Assembly: GCF_004322855.1 (NCBI RefSeq) | Contig: NZ_CP036402.1 | Coordinates: 3,410,001-3,474,000, forward strand | Length of the DNA stretch: 64,000 bases | DNA from: Egibacter rhizosphaerae | GTDB taxonomy: Bacteria > Actinomycetota > Nitriliruptoria > Euzebyales > Egibacteraceae | Direction of reading: 5' to 3' | In this document: positions 44,614 to 52,410 of the stretch, piece by piece | How positions within the stretch are numbered: position 1 is the first letter of the stretch | Layout: every line of letters begins with the position of its first letter | Notes under the pieces: generated by a model | The model's database searches: none | Told to the model about the DNA's origin: nothing | The model's input: the letters and a program-made list of their open reading frames with translations, nothing else | Made by a program: the position numbers and the translations under genes

Positions 44614-45957
44614 TCAGCGGAGCGGCCCCTCGAGGTCGGCGCCCTCCTCGGCCATGTCGTCGGGCCAGACGACGTTCCAGGTGCCGTCCTGGATCTGCTT
44701 GATCGTCTGGATGTCGTCGCCGTAGTTCTGGCGGTCCTCGTCGAAGGTGAGGGTGCCCTGGACGGTCTCGACCTCGTTGTTGCGGATCCACTCGCCGATC
44801 TCGTCGTGGTCGAGGCACTCGCAGCCCTCGACACCCGCGGTGAGGATCTGCCATGCCGCCCATGACGCACCGGCCTGGGTCTCGGGCGCCGTGTACCCGA
44901 GCCCCTCCTCCTCGGCCGCCTCGGTGAAGCGCTCGACGAGCACGTCGCCGCCCTCGTTATCGAGGTAGGCCTCGGCGTCCTCGAAGATCGTCACGCTCGT
45001 GGCGCCGTCACCGAGTTCCCCGGCGTCGACCATCGGGCCCGGGGACGGCCACTGGTAGAAGTGGTTGCGCGGCTGGTAGTCGATCTGCTCCATGGCCGCC
45101 AGCAGATTGGGGCCGTCCTCGCCGAGCGCGCCCACGTAGAGGAGGTCGGGGTCCGCCTCCTCGATGCGCGAGGCGATCGGCATGAAGTCCGTGGTGCCGA
45201 TGTCGAAGCTGACGTCGAGCACGACCTCGAGCCCCATCTCCTCGGCGACCTGGGCGGCCCCGCCGCCGGGCTCGATCACGGAGCCCTCGGGAATCTCGTC
45301 CTCGTCGACGCCGTAGGCGAGGAAGTCGGTACCCGGGAAGCGGTTCACGACGAAGCCGACGGTCTCGGGGGGATCATCGGTCGTCTCGTACGCCTCGAAC
45401 ACCTTCTCGGGGGTCGTGTAGTGGGTGTCGAGCCCGACGAACCAGGTGGGGAAGTGCTTGTCGTAGGTGTAGGCGTACGTGAGGCTCGCGGTGTGGTGCG
45501 GGAACACGTACCCGTGCCGCTCGGCGACCGCCATCGCGGCGGTGATGTTCGCGGTGCCGTAGGGCCCCATGACGAGATCGACGGTGTCCTCGGTGATGAG
45601 GCGCTCGTAGGCCGAGGCCGACTGCTCGGGCTCCGACTCGTCGTCGATGACGGACCACTCGACCGGCCGCCCCAGCAGGCCCCCCTGCTCCTCGTTGAGC
45701 CACTCGACGTACTCATCGGCCACGAGTTCGTGGATCACCGCCGTCGGCGCCAAGCCGCCCGTGAGCGCGAGCGACCCCCCGATCTCGATCGGATCGCCCT
45801 CGGGCTCGTCCGCATCACCCTCGGCCTCGTCCGCATCGGCCTCGGCGGCGTCCTCGCCGTCGTCCTCGCCGTTGTCCTCCCCGCACGCCGCCGCCACGAG
45901 GGCGAGCAGTGCCACGAGCACGAGGCAGCGTCTGAACCAGCCTGTGGTTGCCGTCAT
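44614..45957 (-). CDS. LIV-type ABC transporter solute-binding lipoprotein (system 2)
   Basis: This 447-residue binding protein has a signal peptide 'RRCLVLVALLALVAAAC' with lipobox A-A-A-C, then a 35-residue acidic linker (E-D-N-G-E-D-D-G...), then the binding fold from 'PIEIGGSLALTGGLAPTAVI' (in part). It is a paralogue of the system 1 protein: both share 'IGGSLALTGG'/'IGGSLGLTGG', 'EEQGGLLGRPVEW'/'NEEGGLLGRPVEL' and 'VIDDESEP'/'IYDDESTP'. ATG 45957 follows GGGAGG by seven bases. It leads the operon from a promoter that carries a LacI operator in its spacer and a second just upstream. Confidence 0.93.
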   Translation of the reverse strand: MTATTGWFRRCLVLVALLALVAAACGEDNGEDDGEDAAEADADEAEGDADEPEGDPIEIGGSLALTGGLAPTAVIHELVADEYVEWLNEEQGGLLGRPVEWSVIDDESEPEQSASAYERLITEDTVDLVMGPYGTANITAAMAVAERHGYVFPHHTASLTYAYTYDKHFPTWFVGLDTHYTTPEKVFEAYETTDDPPETVGFVVNRFPGTDFLAYGVDEDEIPEGSVIEPGGGAAQVAEEMGLEVVLDVSFDIGTTDFMPIASRIEEADPDLLYVGALGEDGPNLLAAMEQIDYQPRNHFYQWPSPGPMVDAGELGDGATSVTIFEDAEAYLDNEGGDVLVERFTEAAEEEGLGYTAPETQAGASWAAWQILTAGVEGCECLDHDEIGEWIRNNEVETVQGTLTFDEDRQNYGDDIQTIKQIQDGTWNVVWPDDMAEEGADLEGPLR

Positions 45958-46086
45958 GTCCAACCCTCCCAGAGAGCGCCGCTTCTCGATCAACGCGCTT
46001 CGTCGCGGTGTCGCCTGTCTGCACCGGGACCGAGGTACTGACCGACCCACCGTTGTCGTTGATCCGCCTCGATCCTGAGGGCGCTG

Positions 46087-46115
46087 ATCGCAGCAAACGA
46101 TTGCGACGCTGTCAA
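46087..46115 (-). promoter_or_regulatory. Promoter of LIV system 2 with operator in the spacer
   Basis: On the minus strand a perfect -35 TTGACA (46115-46110) is followed by a 17-base spacer and TGCGAT (46092-46087) as a weak -10. The last 12 bases of the spacer are GCAATCGTTTGC (46104-46093), identical to the operator at 33066-33077. Bound repressor would occlude RNA polymerase. Confidence 0.68.
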
Positions 46116-46124
46116 TGGGTTGTT

Positions 46125-46136
46125 GCAATCGTTTTT
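46125..46136. promoter_or_regulatory. Second LacI half-operator upstream of LIV system 2 promoter
   Basis: GCAATCGTTTTT keeps the left half and centre of the island operator and lies 32 bp (about three turns) from the spacer operator, upstream of the -35. It may help repressor looping or cooperative binding. Confidence 0.5.
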
Positions 46137-46395
46137 CCGGCAGTGTTGCGCCAAGGAGGTTGGGCCGAGGGCCGGGGAGTGAGGGGCGTGGGCCGTCGGG
46201 CGATCGTGGGGCTCGTGCGCGGGCTCGTGGGCGTCGCGGACCGGGCGTGGGCCGTCGGCCGATCCGGGCTCGCCGGGTGGTGGGGGTGGCGGGGGCTACG
46301 CTGGAGACGGCACAGTCCGAGGTCCGAGCGCGACACGGTGCGCAGCGGCTCACCGGCCGCGCGAGGACCACGATGCCGACCGGAGCTCCGAGCCG
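46137..46395. other. Spacer upstream of the membrane/kinase-like gene
   Basis: The spacer between divergent genes is 438 bp (45958-46395). Its left half holds the LIV system 2 promoter and operators; the right half is GC-rich, G-runs dominate the plus strand, and no promoter or gene could be supported. Confidence 0.5.
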
Positions 46396-48363
46396 ATGTC
46401 CTTGCCCGCCGTGACCCTCGAGTTGTTCCACTGGCTCGGAGGCGTTGTCCGTCAGCTCATGCGGATCGACCGGCCCGCGACCGTGGGCACGATCGTGACG
46501 AGCGTCCTGTCGCACATCGCGGGCGTCATCGCCTTCATGCTGCCGCTCAAGGTCGTGCTCCTCGTCGGCAGCGACGGCATCCCCCGCTACTTCTTCTGGA
46601 TCAGCGAGGAGACGCGCACTCCGTGGATCAGCGTGCTCGCCATCGGCACGCTCGTGCTGTACGTCCTGTCGGTGAACCTGGAGTCGTTGTCCGAGCGCGC
46701 AGCGACCCGCGGGGTGGAGCGCCTGCGCACGAGCATCGGCCAGGTCCCGCTGTCGGACAACGAGGAGAACTGGGCCGGCGGCCACTACCGTTTGGTGACC
46801 GGGAGCGTCGCCAAGCTCGGGTTCGGGTGCGTCGCGCTGCTGGGCGGCCTTGTGCTGTTCCCGGCGCTGTTCGGCTTCGCCGCCGCGGTCATGATCCTCG
46901 AGTTCCTCGCCTGCGCGGTCCTGTTGCGCCGGGGCACCGACCTCGGATCGTTGGGTCGCGCCGGGGCCTACGTGGCGGGCGAGACCAAGGCCCTGGTCAA
47001 GAAGCTGCGGGCCGTCAACTTCATGCTCGTGTTCCTGTTCCTGGTCGGGGCGTTCCTGCTCGCCGACGACCTGAACATCCTGATCGGGATCGTGTCGATC
47101 ATCCTGAGTCGCCAGATGTTCAACGGGTTCGGCGAGTTCGCCGCCGGCGCCCTCGACCTCGCCCGCAATCGCGAAGAGATCAGCGCGCTCGTCTACCACA
47201 ACGCGCAGCTGCGCCCCCGCGACAACAGCCAGGGGCCCGAGCTGCGTCAGCACTTCGCCCGCTCCCGGCGGCTCGAGCGCGTGCACGCGCTCGCCGCGCA
47301 GGGCACCGCGCCGGGGCTGGCGGCCGTCGTCGACTCCCGGTTCACCGATAGCGGCAACCGCAACCACGCCACGTTCGACTTGTACGTCGATCCCGATGCC
47401 GCCGAGGGCGAGCCCGCGTTCCGCGAGTACGTCTACACCACCAAGGGCGCGAAGGGCCTCGGGTATCAGGACTACCTGCTCGCCCGGTTCGGGCCCGACG
47501 AGCTGCGGTGCCTGCCCCGGGTGGCCGAATACGTCGAACGTGGCTTCCAGGCGCGGATCGTCGAGTGGCGCGGCGCGGCCCCGTTCGAGCGGCGCTCTGC
47601 GCAGCAGCAGGCCCGGCGGGACCTGCTGCGCCACCTGTGGGCGCTCGAGGTTCCCCACAACTTCGTGCGCGCGTACTCGCGCGCGCGGCCGTTGCTGGCC
47701 GACCGGTTCGACGAGGAGGGCCTGGCCGCGCTCGACCTCGCCACCGACGAGCCGTGGGCGGAGGCGGCGTACAACGGGTTTCGTGACGCGCTGCCGGGCT
47801 TACGGGAGCAGGCGGCGAGCCTCCCACTCGCGCTCATCAACGCGAAGATCGGCAAGAACAACATCGTCCGCGACCACGAGGGCGAGCCGCGGTTGATCGA
47901 CTGGCGCTCGTGGACTCTGGAGCCGGTCGGTGCCGGCTTCGATCTCGACGCTGACGGCCTGGCGTGGCTGTCGCGGTCCGCGGTGCGGTTGCAGCGGGTC
48001 GATCGGATCCCGGCCGAGGGAGCCCTGGGCGCGCTCGTGGCTGCCAGCACGCTGTACCAGGTCGAGACGCTGGCCCAGGCCGGCGAGCCCAAGCGGGCGC
48101 TGCGCGTGGTCGAGCAGGCCCTGCCCCTCTTCGGTCTGCGGGACGAGGACTTCCCGACCGAGGTCGAGCAGCGCGTCGACGACGGGGCCGCGGCCGGGTC
48201 CGAGGCCGACGCTGACGCCGAGGCCGACGCCGACGCCGAGGTCTGGGCCGACGCCGACGGTGGCGACGAGGCCGACGCTGACGCCGAGGACCGCGCCGCC
48301 CTCGAGGACCGTGAGCGCGTCGCGGAGGACGAGGCCCAGGGGGTCGGCCGGCCCACGATCTAG
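46396..48363 (+). CDS. ABC-exporter-like membrane domain fused to a degenerate kinase-like domain
   Basis: I do not recognise this 655-residue protein as any named family. Residues about 1-275 form five to six helices resembling a type-I ABC exporter membrane domain without its ATPase ('IDRPATVGTIVTSVLSHIAG' in part at the start; the closing helix 'QMFNGFGEFAAGALDLARNR' in part). Residues about 320-560 resemble aminoglycoside-phosphotransferase/kinase folds: 'ALINAKIGKNNIV...GEPRLIDWRSW' mirrors H-G-D-x-H-P-x-N...I-D-W. The catalytic H-G-D is N-A-K, while the later metal-type Asp of 'LIDW' is kept, so it may be a pseudokinase. The last 60 residues are an Asp/Ala/Glu repeat. The P-loop gene follows 53 bp downstream, so the pair is likely functional together. 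Confidence 0.72.
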   Translation: MSLPAVTLELFHWLGGVVRQLMRIDRPATVGTIVTSVLSHIAGVIAFMLPLKVVLLVGSDGIPRYFFWISEETRTPWISVLAIGTLVLYVLSVNLESLSERAATRGVERLRTSIGQVPLSDNEENWAGGHYRLVTGSVAKLGFGCVALLGGLVLFPALFGFAAAVMILEFLACAVLLRRGTDLGSLGRAGAYVAGETKALVKKLRAVNFMLVFLFLVGAFLLADDLNILIGIVSIILSRQMFNGFGEFAAGALDLARNREEISALVYHNAQLRPRDNSQGPELRQHFARSRRLERVHALAAQGTAPGLAAVVDSRFTDSGNRNHATFDLYVDPDAAEGEPAFREYVYTTKGAKGLGYQDYLLARFGPDELRCLPRVAEYVERGFQARIVEWRGAAPFERRSAQQQARRDLLRHLWALEVPHNFVRAYSRARPLLADRFDEEGLAALDLATDEPWAEAAYNGFRDALPGLREQAASLPLALINAKIGKNNIVRDHEGEPRLIDWRSWTLEPVGAGFDLDADGLAWLSRSAVRLQRVDRIPAEGALGALVAASTLYQVETLAQAGEPKRALRVVEQALPLFGLRDEDFPTEVEQRVDDGAAAGSEADADAEADADAEVWADADGGDEADADAEDRAALEDRERVAEDEAQGVGRPTI

Positions 48364-48416
48364 TCGCGCTGCCGGGTCCGCGAGGGCTGGACGGCGCGGT
48401 CCGAGTCGAAGGGGTG

Positions 48417-49175
48417 ATGTCGCTGCCGCTGCCACGTTACGTCGAGGTGCTCGGGGCACCCGGGGTGGGCAAGACCACGATCCTGCATGCTTGCGCCGGG
48501 GCTCGGCGGCCCGACGGCCCTTGGGCCCTCGACCCCGAGTACGCGAGCGGGGGTCCGTGGGACGGTGTCCGGGGCCTCAAGCCGCGTGGACGGTTCGTCC
48601 GTGACCATCCCGAGTTCGCCGCGTTCCTGTTCCGGGCACTCGGGCGCGCCGCGCTCGACCGTGACGAGCCGGCGGCAGCGCGGATGTTCGAGCGCACCCA
48701 GGCGTTGAACCACGTCTTCGCCAAGTTCGAGCACGCGGCCGAACGGCTACGCCCCGACCAGGTGCTCATCGTCGACGAGGCCTTCGTGAAGGCCGGCGCC
48801 CCGCCGCTGCTGAACCATCGCCACAGCGGCGAGACCCTGCGGGAGACGTTGCAGCGCCCGGAGATGGGCGCGGCCTACGTGCACGTGGACGCCGAGGCCG
48901 ACCTGATCCAGCCGCGGATCGTCGAGCGGAGCAAGCGGGCCCGCTCGCACCGCGGGCTGTCCGAGCAGCAGGTCGTGGAACGAACCCGGCGTAGCCTCGA
49001 CTCGTGGCGGCGTGCCGTCGAGCGGATCCGGCGCGCGGAGGTGCCGACGCTCGTGCTCGACGCCGCCGAGCCCGCCGAGGCCAACGCCGAGGCCCTGCGG
49101 CGCTTCGTCGAGGGGTTCGCCCCCTCGCAGGACGACACGGCGGACGCGGGATCGGGCACCGCTCCGGAGGGCTGA
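48417..49175 (+). CDS. P-loop small-molecule kinase-like ATPase
   Basis: This 252-residue P-loop protein has Walker A 'LGAPGVGKTTILHACAG' (in part), a probable Walker B 'QVLIVDEAFVKAG', an Arg-rich lid 'IVERSKRARSHRGLSEQQ' (in part) and a final strand-helix 'LVLDAAEPAEANAEALRRF', a layout like thymidylate or deoxynucleoside kinases. Substrate is unknown. ATG 48417 is used; GTG 48414 is an alternative. It follows the membrane/kinase-like gene and precedes (on the same strand) cysDN, with only a minus-strand nuclease gene between. The C-terminal 15 residues are acidic and low-complexity. Confidence 0.78.
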   Translation: MSLPLPRYVEVLGAPGVGKTTILHACAGARRPDGPWALDPEYASGGPWDGVRGLKPRGRFVRDHPEFAAFLFRALGRAALDRDEPAAARMFERTQALNHVFAKFEHAAERLRPDQVLIVDEAFVKAGAPPLLNHRHSGETLRETLQRPEMGAAYVHVDAEADLIQPRIVERSKRARSHRGLSEQQVVERTRRSLDSWRRAVERIRRAEVPTLVLDAAEPAEANAEALRRFVEGFAPSQDDTADAGSGTAPEG

Positions 49176-49264: not shown

Positions 49265-50055
49265 TCACTCCGACAGCTCCGCATGGGCGGCGGCGAGGAA
49301 CCGGTAGGTCCACTCCTCGGCCATCTTGCGCGAGTCGGCGAAGACGATCGGCACGGTCGGATACCGGACCTGCAGGCGCGCCAGGAGGTCGAGCACGAAG
49401 CCCGGTTGGGTGTGCTCGACCTGCTGCAGCTGCGGGTAACGGCCTCCACGACCACCGCGGCGCGGTCGAGTTCGGCAAGCTGGAACGCGAGCGAGCCGTC
49501 GACGAGCCCGCCCACGAGGTCGTCGACCGACTTGCGTTCGACGGCGGCACACGGGGCCTCGTCGACGTCGAGGACCGCGTAGTCGCCCGCCCGCAGGGTC
49601 GCGTCGCGCACGCTCGCCTTCTGGGTCGCGAACCGGTAGCCGTAGCGCTCCCGACGGTCGCGGGCGATCACCAACTCGTCGATCCCCTGCGCGCGACGGC
49701 TCGGTACGCGCTGCCCCGGTCGTGCCGCGCGAGCCGCCTTCGCCGTCTGCCAGAAGACCGCCGGACGACCGTCCTTGAGCCGGGTGAACACGAACTGGCT
49801 GCGGCTCTCCCGTCCGCGCTCCAGGATGAGGTCGACCGCGACGCCGCGACGGCGGATCGAGCGGACCGGCTGCGTGTCGACCGTCTCCACCTCCTCGGGC
49901 CACTCGTCGACCTCCAAGCAGAACACGCGGCCCGTCCGCGGCCACACGTCCTTCGCCTTGAGGGTCACGCCCCCCTCGAGCGGCAGCCACAACAGGTACG
50001 GCAGCTTGCTGCCCGGCTCGGGGTTGTGCGCGACGACGAACCGGTCCTCGTCCAT
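49265..50055 (-). pseudogene. ERCC4-type nuclease domain protein, frameshifted
   Basis: This 263-codon gene encodes an ERCC4 (XPF-like) nuclease domain in its second half, with the hallmark 'AVERKSVDDLVGGLVDGSLA' (in part; the E-R-K-x3-D motif) followed by 'QLAELDRAAVVVEA'. At about 49439-49445 the frame breaks: the upstream frame continues as unconserved Ser/Arg-rich sequence, while the conserved continuation 'RYPQLQQVEHTQPGFVLDLL' (in part) to the stop at 49265 lies in another frame. One missing base would join 'VVVEA' to 'RYPQLQ'. It could be a true pseudogene or a sequencing error; no slippery heptamer is present. The N-terminal 120 residues ('VVAHNPEPGSKLPYLLWLPL' in part) are conserved-looking but unnamed. 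Confidence 0.78.
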
Positions 50056-50208
50056 GGTCGACAGTGTCGAGGAAAGCGATCCCGATGTCCGGCATCCGGA
50101 CGATGCCCGGCGCCGGGGCTGCTTCGTCGGGGGCCGATGCCCGGCACGGGGGGCTGCGCCGTCGGGCGGCGCGGCCGGTCGGTGTCGCGACGCGATAACC
50201 TCGCCGCG

Positions 50209-51120
50209 ATGAGCCACTACGTCCTGAGTCACCTGCGCGCGCTCGAGGCCGAGGCGGTGCACATCATGCGCGAGGTGGCCGCCCAGCGCGAGCGGCCCGT
50301 GCTGCTGTTCAGCGGCGGCAAGGACTCGCTGGTGCTCCTGCGGCTGGCGGAGAAGGCGTTCCGCCCCGGGGGGTTCCCGTTCCCCGTCATGCACGTGGAC
50401 ACCGGGCACAACTTCCCCGAGACCATCGCGTTCCGCGACCACGTGATGGACGCGTTGGGGGAGCGGCTGGTGGTCGCCCACGTGCAGGACTCGCTCGACG
50501 CGGGCCGGGTGGTCGAGGAGACGGGCCCGCGCGCGAGCCGCAACCGGCTGCAGACGGTGACGCTGCTCGACGCGATCGCCGAACACGGCTTCGACGCCGC
50601 GTTCGGGGGTGCGCGCCGCGACGAGGAGCGCAGCCGCGCGAAGGAGCGGGTGGTCAGCCACCGCGACGAGTTCGGCCAGTGGGACCCGCGCCAGCAGCGG
50701 CCGGAACTGTGGAGCCTCTACAACGCGCGGGTCGGCCGCGGCGAGCACGTGCGGGTGTTCCCCCTGTCGAACTGGACCGAGCTCGACGTGTGGCAGTACC
50801 TGGCGGCCGAGGCGATGCCGGTGCCCAGCCTGTACTTCGCCCACGAGCGCGAGGTGTTCCGACGCGACGGGATGCTGTACGCCGTCGGCGAGCACATGCG
50901 GCCCTCCCTCGAGGGCGAGGAGCCGTTCCGTGCGAAGGTGCGGTTCCGCACGATCGGGGACATGAGCTGCACGGGGGCGATCGAGTCGAGTGCGCAGACC
51001 ATCGCCGACGTGATCGCCGAGACCGCGGCCACGCGGGTGACCGAGCGCGGGGCGACCCGCGCCGACGACCGGGTGAGCGAGGCCGCGATGGAGGACCGCA
51101 AGCGGGAGGGCTACTTCTAG
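50209..51120 (+). CDS. cysD: Sulfate adenylyltransferase subunit 2
   Basis: This 303-residue subunit forms APS from ATP and sulfate. The PP-loop S-G-G-K-D-S is at residues 35-40 ('LLFSGGKDSLVLLRLAEKAF' in part). Other CysD landmarks are 'VDTGHNFPET', 'GGARRDEERSRAKER' and 'FPLSNWTELDVWQYL'. Length is usual for the family. ATG 50209 is used. The next gene starts directly after its TAG, so the CysD-CysN complex is co-translated. No sulfate permease, APS reductase or APS kinase gene is nearby. Confidence 0.97.
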   Translation: MSHYVLSHLRALEAEAVHIMREVAAQRERPVLLFSGGKDSLVLLRLAEKAFRPGGFPFPVMHVDTGHNFPETIAFRDHVMDALGERLVVAHVQDSLDAGRVVEETGPRASRNRLQTVTLLDAIAEHGFDAAFGGARRDEERSRAKERVVSHRDEFGQWDPRQQRPELWSLYNARVGRGEHVRVFPLSNWTELDVWQYLAAEAMPVPSLYFAHEREVFRRDGMLYAVGEHMRPSLEGEEPFRAKVRFRTIGDMSCTGAIESSAQTIADVIAETAATRVTERGATRADDRVSEAAMEDRKREGYF

Positions 51121-52410
51121 ATGGGCGATCCCGTGACCGCGCTGCCCGACGACGTCTCGCGCACGGGCATGGACCTGCTGCGGTTCACGACCGCCGGCAG
51201 CGTCGACGACGGCAAGTCGACGCTGATCGGGCGACTGCTGTACGACTCGAAGCAGGTGTTCGCCGACCAGCTCGAGCAGGTGGAGGCCGCGAGCGCGGCG
51301 CTCGGCGACGACGGCGTGAACCTCGCGCTGCTCACCGACGGGCTGCGCGCCGAACGCGAGCAGGGCATCACCATCGACGTCGCGTACCGCTACTTCGCGA
51401 CGCCGCGGCGGAAGTTCATCATCGCCGACACGCCCGGCCACGAGCAGTACACGCGCAACATGGTGACCGGCGCGTCGACGTCGAACCTCGCGGTCGTGCT
51501 CGTCGACGCCCAGCAGGGGATGACGCAGCAGTCGCGGCGGCACGCGTCGATCGCGAGCCTGCTCGGCATCCCCCACGTCGTGGTCGCGGTGAACAAGATG
51601 GACCTCGTCGGCTACCGCGAGGACGCCTTCGAGCGGATCGTCCACGACTTCACCGCGTTCGCCGCGAAGCTCGAGACCACCGACGTCACCTTCATCCCCA
51701 TCTCGGCCCTGCACGGCGACAACGTCGTCACTCGCAGCGACGCGATGCCCTGGTACCAGGGGCCGTCCCTGCTCTACCACCTCGAGACCGTGCACATCGC
51801 CAGCGATCGCAACCTGGTCGACACGCGCTTCCCCGTGCAGCGGGTCACACGGCGTCGCAACCCCGAGTACCGCGGCTATGCGGGGACGATGGCCGCGGGG
51901 ATCCTGCGTCCGGGGGAGGACGTGGTCGTGCTGCCGAGCGGCTTCGAGAGCACGGTCGAGGCGATCGACACCCTGGAGGGCGAGGTGGACGAGGCGTTCC
52001 CACCAATGGCGGTGACGGTGCGGCTCGCCGACGATCTCGACGTCGGCCGGGGCGACATGCTCGCCCGCCCCCGCAACCGACCCGAGGTGACCCAGGAGCT
52101 CGACGCGATGGTGTGCTGGATGAGCGACCGTCCGCTCGCGGCCCGCGGCATGTACGCGTTGAAGCACACGACCCGGGATGCGCGGGCCATGATCACCGAC
52201 GTCGTCTACCGCCTCGACGTCGACACGCTGCACCGCGACCCGGAGGCCGACCGGCTCGCCGCCAACGATCTCGGCCGGGTCCGGCTGCGCACCACCACGC
52301 CGCTGTGCGTCGACCCCTACGACCGCAACCGCTCCACGGGCAGCTTCGTGCTCGTCGACGAACAGACCGACTCGACCGTCGGCGCGGGTATGATCCTCGA
52401 CCGTGGCTGA
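51121..52410 (+). CDS. cysN: Sulfate adenylyltransferase subunit 1 (GTPase), no APS-kinase domain
   Basis: This 429-residue translation-factor-like GTPase drives the CysD reaction. It has G1 'GSVDDGKST', G3 'DTPGHEQYTRNM', G4 'NKMD' and two beta-barrel domains after it. It ends at the normal CysN length, so it is not a CysNC fusion. ATG 51121 starts immediately after the cysD stop codon. The PspC gene overlaps its end by 8 bp. Confidence 0.97.
   Translation: MGDPVTALPDDVSRTGMDLLRFTTAGSVDDGKSTLIGRLLYDSKQVFADQLEQVEAASAALGDDGVNLALLTDGLRAEREQGITIDVAYRYFATPRRKFIIADTPGHEQYTRNMVTGASTSNLAVVLVDAQQGMTQQSRRHASIASLLGIPHVVVAVNKMDLVGYREDAFERIVHDFTAFAAKLETTDVTFIPISALHGDNVVTRSDAMPWYQGPSLLYHLETVHIASDRNLVDTRFPVQRVTRRRNPEYRGYAGTMAAGILRPGEDVVVLPSGFESTVEAIDTLEGEVDEAFPPMAVTVRLADDLDVGRGDMLARPRNRPEVTQELDAMVCWMSDRPLAARGMYALKHTTRDARAMITDVVYRLDVDTLHRDPEADRLAANDLGRVRLRTTTPLCVDPYDRNRSTGSFVLVDEQTDSTVGAGMILDRG

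Follow-up and report, generated by a model that had tools for sequence, protein, structure and literature searches.

The window analysed here is a stretch of 64,000 nucleotides from the genome of Egibacter rhizosphaerae, which consists of a single contig of 4.64 Mb. It includes a plus-strand gene, referred to as TMD-pk, whose 655-aa product joins an exporter-like transmembrane domain to a kinase-like domain, and the genes that follow it encode an orphan P-loop protein and the sulfate adenylyltransferase subunits CysD and CysN (Table 1). Both TMD-pk and the P-loop gene were found at the coordinates given by a sequence-only reading of the window, which had proposed them as a possible new two-component system. 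TMD-pk was accepted as a real gene, as it has a full-length homologue, 43% identical, in the Nitriliruptoria bacterium isolate T1Sed10_73 (genome G140), a member of the same family as Egibacter, and further homologues of 12-28% identity in Gammaproteobacteria, while the P-loop frame has the codon-position GC content typical for a gene. A long minus-strand frame (44614-47658) overlapping part of TMD-pk was not accepted as coding in that region, given that homologues of the plus-strand protein occur in two phyla. A minus-strand frame of 276 aa between the P-loop gene and cysD (49265-50095) had no Pfam match and looked ERCC4-type nuclease-like by eye.

Table 1. Features of the TMD-pk locus, with positions in the window
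Feature	Position	Strand	Evidence
TMD-pk gene	46396..48363	+	ORF; homologues in Nitriliruptoria and Gammaproteobacteria
ABC type-I-exporter (type IV) transmembrane domain, six TM helices, residues 9-270	46420..47205	+	AF2 model and VIA-align
LPLK motif, residues 49-52, end of TM1	46540..46551	+	conservation count
APH-fold (aminoglycoside/choline-kinase-like) domain, residues 288-581, in NBD position	47257..48138	+	Foldseek, VIA, hhalign
N482-A483-K484, degenerate H-G-D catalytic loop	47839..47847	+	alignment
D502 (LIDW), equivalent of metal-binding Asp	47899..47901	+	alignment; kept in 11/47 members
Disordered Asp/Ala/Glu-rich tail, residues 595-626	48178..48273	+	pLDDT <50
Orphan P-loop protein, 252 aa	48417..49175	+	ORF; weak AAA matches
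Walker A GAPGVGKT	48453-48476	+	P-loop protein sequence
Walker-B-like VLIVDE	48762-48779	+	P-loop protein sequence
cysD, sulfate adenylyltransferase subunit 2	50209..51120	+	Pfam PAPS_reduct 1.7e-46
cysN, sulfate adenylyltransferase subunit 1, without fused CysC	51121..52410	+	Pfam GTP_EFTU

Domain architecture of TMD-pk

The structure of TMD-pk was predicted with AlphaFold2 from 47 family sequences (pLDDT 87.7). The membrane domain was closest in VIA-align to the solved exporters YbtPQ (8vsi_A, Z 15.1), CydDC (14.1) and TmrAB (13.1), and because helical bundles can score Z near 13 without kinship the fold assignment relies less on the Z values than on exporters being listed consistently across the whole domain. 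The family profile showed no significant similarity to full ABC exporters (2%) and kinship with them therefore rests on structure. Nothing relevant was returned when the TMD-pk protein and the family profile were searched against the sequences of solved structures. There was no ATP-binding cassette within TMD-pk, where the kinase fold is found instead, and no free-standing ABC ATPase belonging to the loci of its relatives was found, those present being unrelated. The type-I-exporter-like membrane region without a nucleotide-binding domain (NBD), first proposed from the sequence, was borne out by the model and the structural alignment. Conservation within the family peaked in TM1 and the loop that follows it (LPLKVxxLxGSxGxPRYF), in which P50, L51 and K52 were invariant in 41/41 polysaccharide-type members.

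The best VIA-align matches of residues 288-581 were an APH(2'')-type enzyme (3tdw, Z 14.0), the N-acetylhexosamine 1-kinase NahK (4wh3, 13.4) and the choline kinase LicA (4r77, 13.1). Foldseek independently ranked N-acetylhexosamine 1-kinase first (E 1.1e-5) and hhalign of the kinase half against intact APH-like proteins gave P 93.9% and E 1.6e-7. Catalytic residues were eroded throughout the family. The His of the HGD loop was replaced by Asn in 40 of the 47 aligned members, the catalytic Asp of this loop was retained in 17 and the metal-binding Asp in 11, and 0/47 combined the HGD Asp, the loop Asn and the IDW Asp. The sequence-only reading had placed a kinase-like domain in the position of the NBD, with H-G-D reading N-A-K and I-D-W kept, and the fold matches and the alignment agree with it on each of these points. 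Its suggestion that a lipid- or glycan-linked substrate is phosphorylated at the membrane fared less well and is unlikely because no family member has a complete catalytic triad.

Judged from these residues, phosphotransfer by the kinase domain of the family is unlikely. The beta3 Lys was retained in 35/47 members and the alphaC Glu in 46/47, and nucleotide binding may therefore survive in most relatives. The window copy has lost both residues (Y345 and Q358), being the sole member of the 47 without that Glu, and nucleotide binding by this copy is doubtful. In the G140 copy a His and an Asp persist close to the loop (HHD). Stand-alone APH-family kinases with intact HGDLHxxN and IDWD motifs were seen in two other loci (L103:8870-10204 and L105:9011-10219), adjoining SLC13-type permeases and, in L103, accompanied by cysDN; their sequences suggest that they are possibly active cousins of the pseudokinase.

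Distribution of TMD-pk and its P-loop neighbour

Approximately 46 full-length relatives of TMD-pk were collected, 12-43% identical and nearly all from Gammaproteobacteria, giving 47 members with the window copy. When a two-sequence alignment was run against ~85,000 genomes, the Nitriliruptoria copy, Marinospirillum and two Wenzhouxiangella-type records were recovered. A five-sequence profile then detected ~33 full-length copies in a set of 296 Marinospirillum relatives, and several more in 200 genomes from the Wenzhouxiangella order. Within Actinomycetota, TMD-pk was present in two of the ~396 genomes sampled, and the identical two were recovered among 66 genomes of the class. No relatives were found in phages, plasmids or viral contigs for the queries tried. 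In the tree both Nitriliruptoria proteins were placed together with gammaproteobacterial sequences in a well-supported set (100/99), and this placement fits an old horizontal transfer, although the tree is rooted only at its midpoint.

No Pfam or NCBIfam model covers TMD-pk, and the 47 members gave stray weak matches, one of them to APH at 0.046. No description of such a fusion was found in Pfam, NCBIfam or the literature searched, in keeping with the earlier remark that no described system with it is known, and TMD-pk is regarded as an undescribed family of ATPase-less membrane proteins with the ABC-exporter fold, which recurs in the surface-polysaccharide loci of many halophilic bacteria.

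Relatives of 250-285 aa consisting of the membrane domain without the pseudokinase were found in six genomes, mostly in similar polysaccharide loci with sugar-1-phosphate transferase (PGT) and cytidylyltransferase-like genes. The membrane half can therefore act without the pseudokinase, and seems to be the working core of the family. These short genes lie at L094:9398-10216, L096:9696-10463, L097:9698-10450, L098:9577-10356, L100:9640-10497 and L101:9620-10393. A separate, well-supported subfamily has type I secretion genes on one side and a giant adhesin gene on the other, and the family is therefore not confined to polysaccharides. In loci of this kind (L085, L086, L087, L088, L099 and L102) a divergent TMD-pk lies directly upstream of the giant adhesin gene, and its operon also encodes a type I secretion ABC transporter resembling LapB, a membrane-fusion-like protein of 476 aa, a LuxR-type regulator, a protein of ~1060 aa containing a Mur-ligase domain and a protein in which an HE..H stretch looks metallopeptidase-like.

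The P-loop gene starts 50-53 bases downstream of TMD-pk on the same strand and the two are possibly in one transcript; no sigma-70-type promoter or terminator signals bearing on such an operon were found. The Walker A and Walker-B-like motifs agree with the description of the second gene as a P-loop protein. Its Pfam matches were of AAA type and all sub-threshold, no ABC ATPase profile scored above cut-off, APS kinase (CysC) profiles were not among the matches, and the protein modelled alone reached a pLDDT of 41. The gene was absent near the G140 copy, which lies on a short contig, and from all proteobacterial TMD-pk neighbourhoods. No relatives of the protein were found in the 66 genomes of the class, and none in the ~396 genomes of the phylum beyond Walker-motif stretches of 27-45 residues. 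The pair is specific to the Egibacter lineage as far as sampled. This lack of conserved co-occurrence in family neighbourhoods, class and phylum counts against a two-component system or a recruited P-loop partner as had been proposed, and leaves standing the fusion protein, which is itself conserved.

Polysaccharide loci and sulfate activation

The genomic context of the family was examined in 37 proteobacterial loci, all chosen as holding TMD-pk, with up to 25 kb fetched on each side. In this sample, where the Halomonas-like loci (so labelled by gene content) share ancestry and the counts are not independent, a PGT was nearby in 31/37 loci, a Wzy-like polymerase in 28/37 and cysN(C) within 25 kb in 16/37. 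The PGT and Wzy-like genes mostly lay at a distance of 3-7 kb from TMD-pk, and Pfam searches of representative loci confirmed PGT and Wzy_C. Six of the 37 had no PGT in the examined stretch, some of these being short contigs. A binomial estimate for cysN proximity was not used as a probability because it treats the loci as independent and many share ancestry.

The link to sulfate activation recurred in three lineages, namely the Halomonas-like loci, the Wenzhouxiangella order and the window. One locus (G568) carried TMD-pk, two sulfotransferase-like genes, a PGT and Wzy followed by cysNC and cysD, and after cysD an inositol-monophosphatase-family gene (CysQ-like) and an SLC13-type permease. 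The window CysD was 50% identical to the CysD next to a proteobacterial TMD-pk locus, and the window CysN was 52% identical to the CysN part of the L119 CysNC. There were no PGT, Wzy or polysaccharide neighbours of the window copy in the 64 kb, and only cysDN, 1-3 kb downstream, ties this copy to sulfation. The link to sulfated surface molecules suggested earlier from cysDN found support in the relatives, most of which are in polysaccharide loci.

Other neighbours were also observed repeatedly. A ParB-like gene beside the G140 homologue (L002:119-862) recurred in ~11 proteobacterial loci (E 3.6e-9), so that it is present in both phyla, and was without any Pfam match (e.g. L054:18112-19002). 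Proteins with alginate-lyase or heparinase-II/III domains were encoded in TMD-pk-type polysaccharide loci (L095:15581-17875 and L068:6516-8849) and hint at uronic-acid or glycosaminoglycan-like polymers.

Wzx flippases were searched for by running the Polysacc_synt and Polysacc_synt_3 profiles over the genomes. A match within 25 kb of TMD-pk was obtained in 2/37 loci, at ~6 kb in G499 and at ~21 kb in G489, the latter locus also holding a PglK-like full ABC transporter (L063:2055-3848). In eight genomes (G423, G494, G511, G518, G530, G532, G568 and G765) the sole flippase-profile match was a frame of ~545-575 aa that matched the later part of the profile; these frames were taken as MurJ and serve as a positive control. 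A divergent Wzx may escape the profiles, and one encoded in another part of the genome may do the flipping. Two independent published accounts agree with the scarcity of Wzx, since wzx was reported absent from Halomonas malpeensis (PMC7814019) and no Wzx was reported for Cobetia, where the authors posit "some unknown protein" as the translocase (PMC11766843).

Candidate roles and comparison with known systems

The reading that we tentatively place first is that gammaproteobacterial TMD-pk is an ATPase-less flippase for lipid-linked repeat units, in which the pseudokinase would be a cytoplasmic recognition or regulatory domain. Its substrate would be an undecaprenyl-pyrophosphate-linked repeat unit, flipped across the inner membrane for a surface polysaccharide that is often coupled to sulfate activation, in Wzy-type loci that have a PGT and a Wzy-like polymerase but are without Wzx. 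The reading draws on the fold, the loss of the ATPase and of kinase catalytic residues, the PGT- and Wzy-containing loci with few Wzx genes, the natural forms that have the membrane half only, and the ParB-like neighbour found in both phyla. A homodimer of the membrane domain would alternate access as in PglK/Wzk, driven by an ion gradient or by the pull of polymerisation instead of ATP. The conserved LPLK, PRYF and TM6 R-Q residues may contact the pyrophosphate, and the pseudokinase beneath the membrane domain could read the substrate from the cytoplasm or act as a dock or regulator. PglK/Wzk are ABC-fold flippases of Und-PP glycans that require ATP, the Wzk E525A variant being dead (PMC4990322), and SbmA is a proton-driven ABC fold without an ATPase (PMC13316013). 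These precedents, one for the fold flipping Und-PP glycans and the other for ATPase-free transport, favour the ATPase-less flippase, while the need for ATP hydrolysis in the ABC-fold flippases known so far counts against it. Also against it are the presence of both Wzx and TMD-pk in G499, the six loci without a PGT in the examined stretch, the adhesin-locus subfamily and the window copy without PGT or Wzy. A role of this kind for the window copy would follow by homology, and the neighbouring cysDN is its one local support.

The alternatives rank below flipping in the order scaffold or regulator, transporter of another substrate, membrane kinase and P-loop-driven pair. Pseudokinases commonly serve as binding switches, and TMD-pk could be a membrane scaffold or regulator that moves nothing, with the exporter-like domain anchoring and dimerising and the pseudokinase binding a nucleotide sugar, a nucleotide or a lipid-linked glycan and so recruiting or switching glycosyltransferases. 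We consider this rather unlikely. The beta3 Lys and alphaC Glu kept by most members despite lost catalysis would suit it, as would the position of the gene directly after a GT2 glycosyltransferase gene in L012, L013 and L089, and EcpK, a tyrosine pseudokinase of Myxococcus xanthus, is reported to be important for the synthesis of polysaccharide there (PMC12004946). However, relatives with the membrane domain only occur in similar loci without the presumed binding domain, and a peak of conservation in TM1 and the next loop would be unexpected for a mere anchor. It is improbable that TMD-pk instead carries another substrate, either a polysaccharide precursor or modifying group or a peptide as in SbmA, with an unrecognised protein doing the flipping. 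This would leave the absence of Wzx from most of these polysaccharide loci unexplained, although peptides are what SbmA/BacA, the known ATPase-less ABC folds, import (PMC13316013) and one subfamily adjoins a giant-adhesin type I secretion locus.

Very unlikely is an active phosphotransferase with a non-canonical site, whose substrate would be a membrane-linked glycan or lipid. In its favour are the intact APH/choline-kinase fold of the model, the HHD near the loop of the G140 copy and the D502 of the window copy, but the three catalytic residues occur together in no member and in the window copy the beta3 Lys and alphaC Glu are gone as well. The least probable reading makes the P-loop protein the missing motor or partner of TMD-pk; the shared strand, the short spacing and the Walker A and B-like motifs speak for it, and against it, the gene was found beside no other family member and in no other genome of the class, and no ABC ATPase profile matched it above cut-off.

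Returning to the flippase reading, a broader proposition that we hold more guardedly is that the family represents an ATPase-less flipping route besides Wzx and the ABC flippases, in which the motor would have been swapped for a sugar-reading pseudokinase, and which would replace Wzx in many halophiles and would have passed between Gammaproteobacteria and Actinomycetota. The Wzy-type loci of Halomonas and Cobetia have a translocation step without an assigned protein (PMC7814019, PMC11766843), for which the TMD-pk family offers a concrete and testable candidate. If the proposition is true, an ABC-exporter fold has parted from its ATPase and become linked to a pseudokinase; no description of such an architecture was found in the databases and literature searched.

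Among known systems, PglK/Wzk and MsbA-type exporters have the type-IV (type I exporter) membrane fold in common with TMD-pk, and PglK/Wzk act in polysaccharide or glycoprotein pathways, a setting like that of TMD-pk. Unlike them TMD-pk is without an NBD and has an APH-like pseudokinase in its position, and compared with full exporters its matched membrane stretch is ~50 residues shorter (model 12-270 against 8vsi_A 13-322). SbmA/BacA (SLiPT) share with TMD-pk the exporter membrane fold without an NBD, whereas TMD-pk has a trailing pseudokinase and a polysaccharide context rather than one of peptide import, and SbmA/BacA-type Pfam and NCBIfam profiles matched 0/47 members. Wzx, of the MOP/PST superfamily, resembles TMD-pk in the role proposed here and in its place in Wzy-type loci, but the folds differ and there is no sequence match, none of the TMD-pk members matching the Pfam Polysacc_synt profile. 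The APH, choline kinase and NahK superfamily (PF01636) shares with TMD-pk the fold of residues 288-581 and a distant profile similarity, and differs in that TMD-pk has lost the catalytic residues and has the domain fused to a membrane domain; in NahK and LicA this fold binds sugars, choline and nucleotides. EcpK would resemble TMD-pk, as proposed, in being a pseudokinase that serves polysaccharide synthesis, and what sets the two apart is its description as a tyrosine pseudokinase (PMC12004946).
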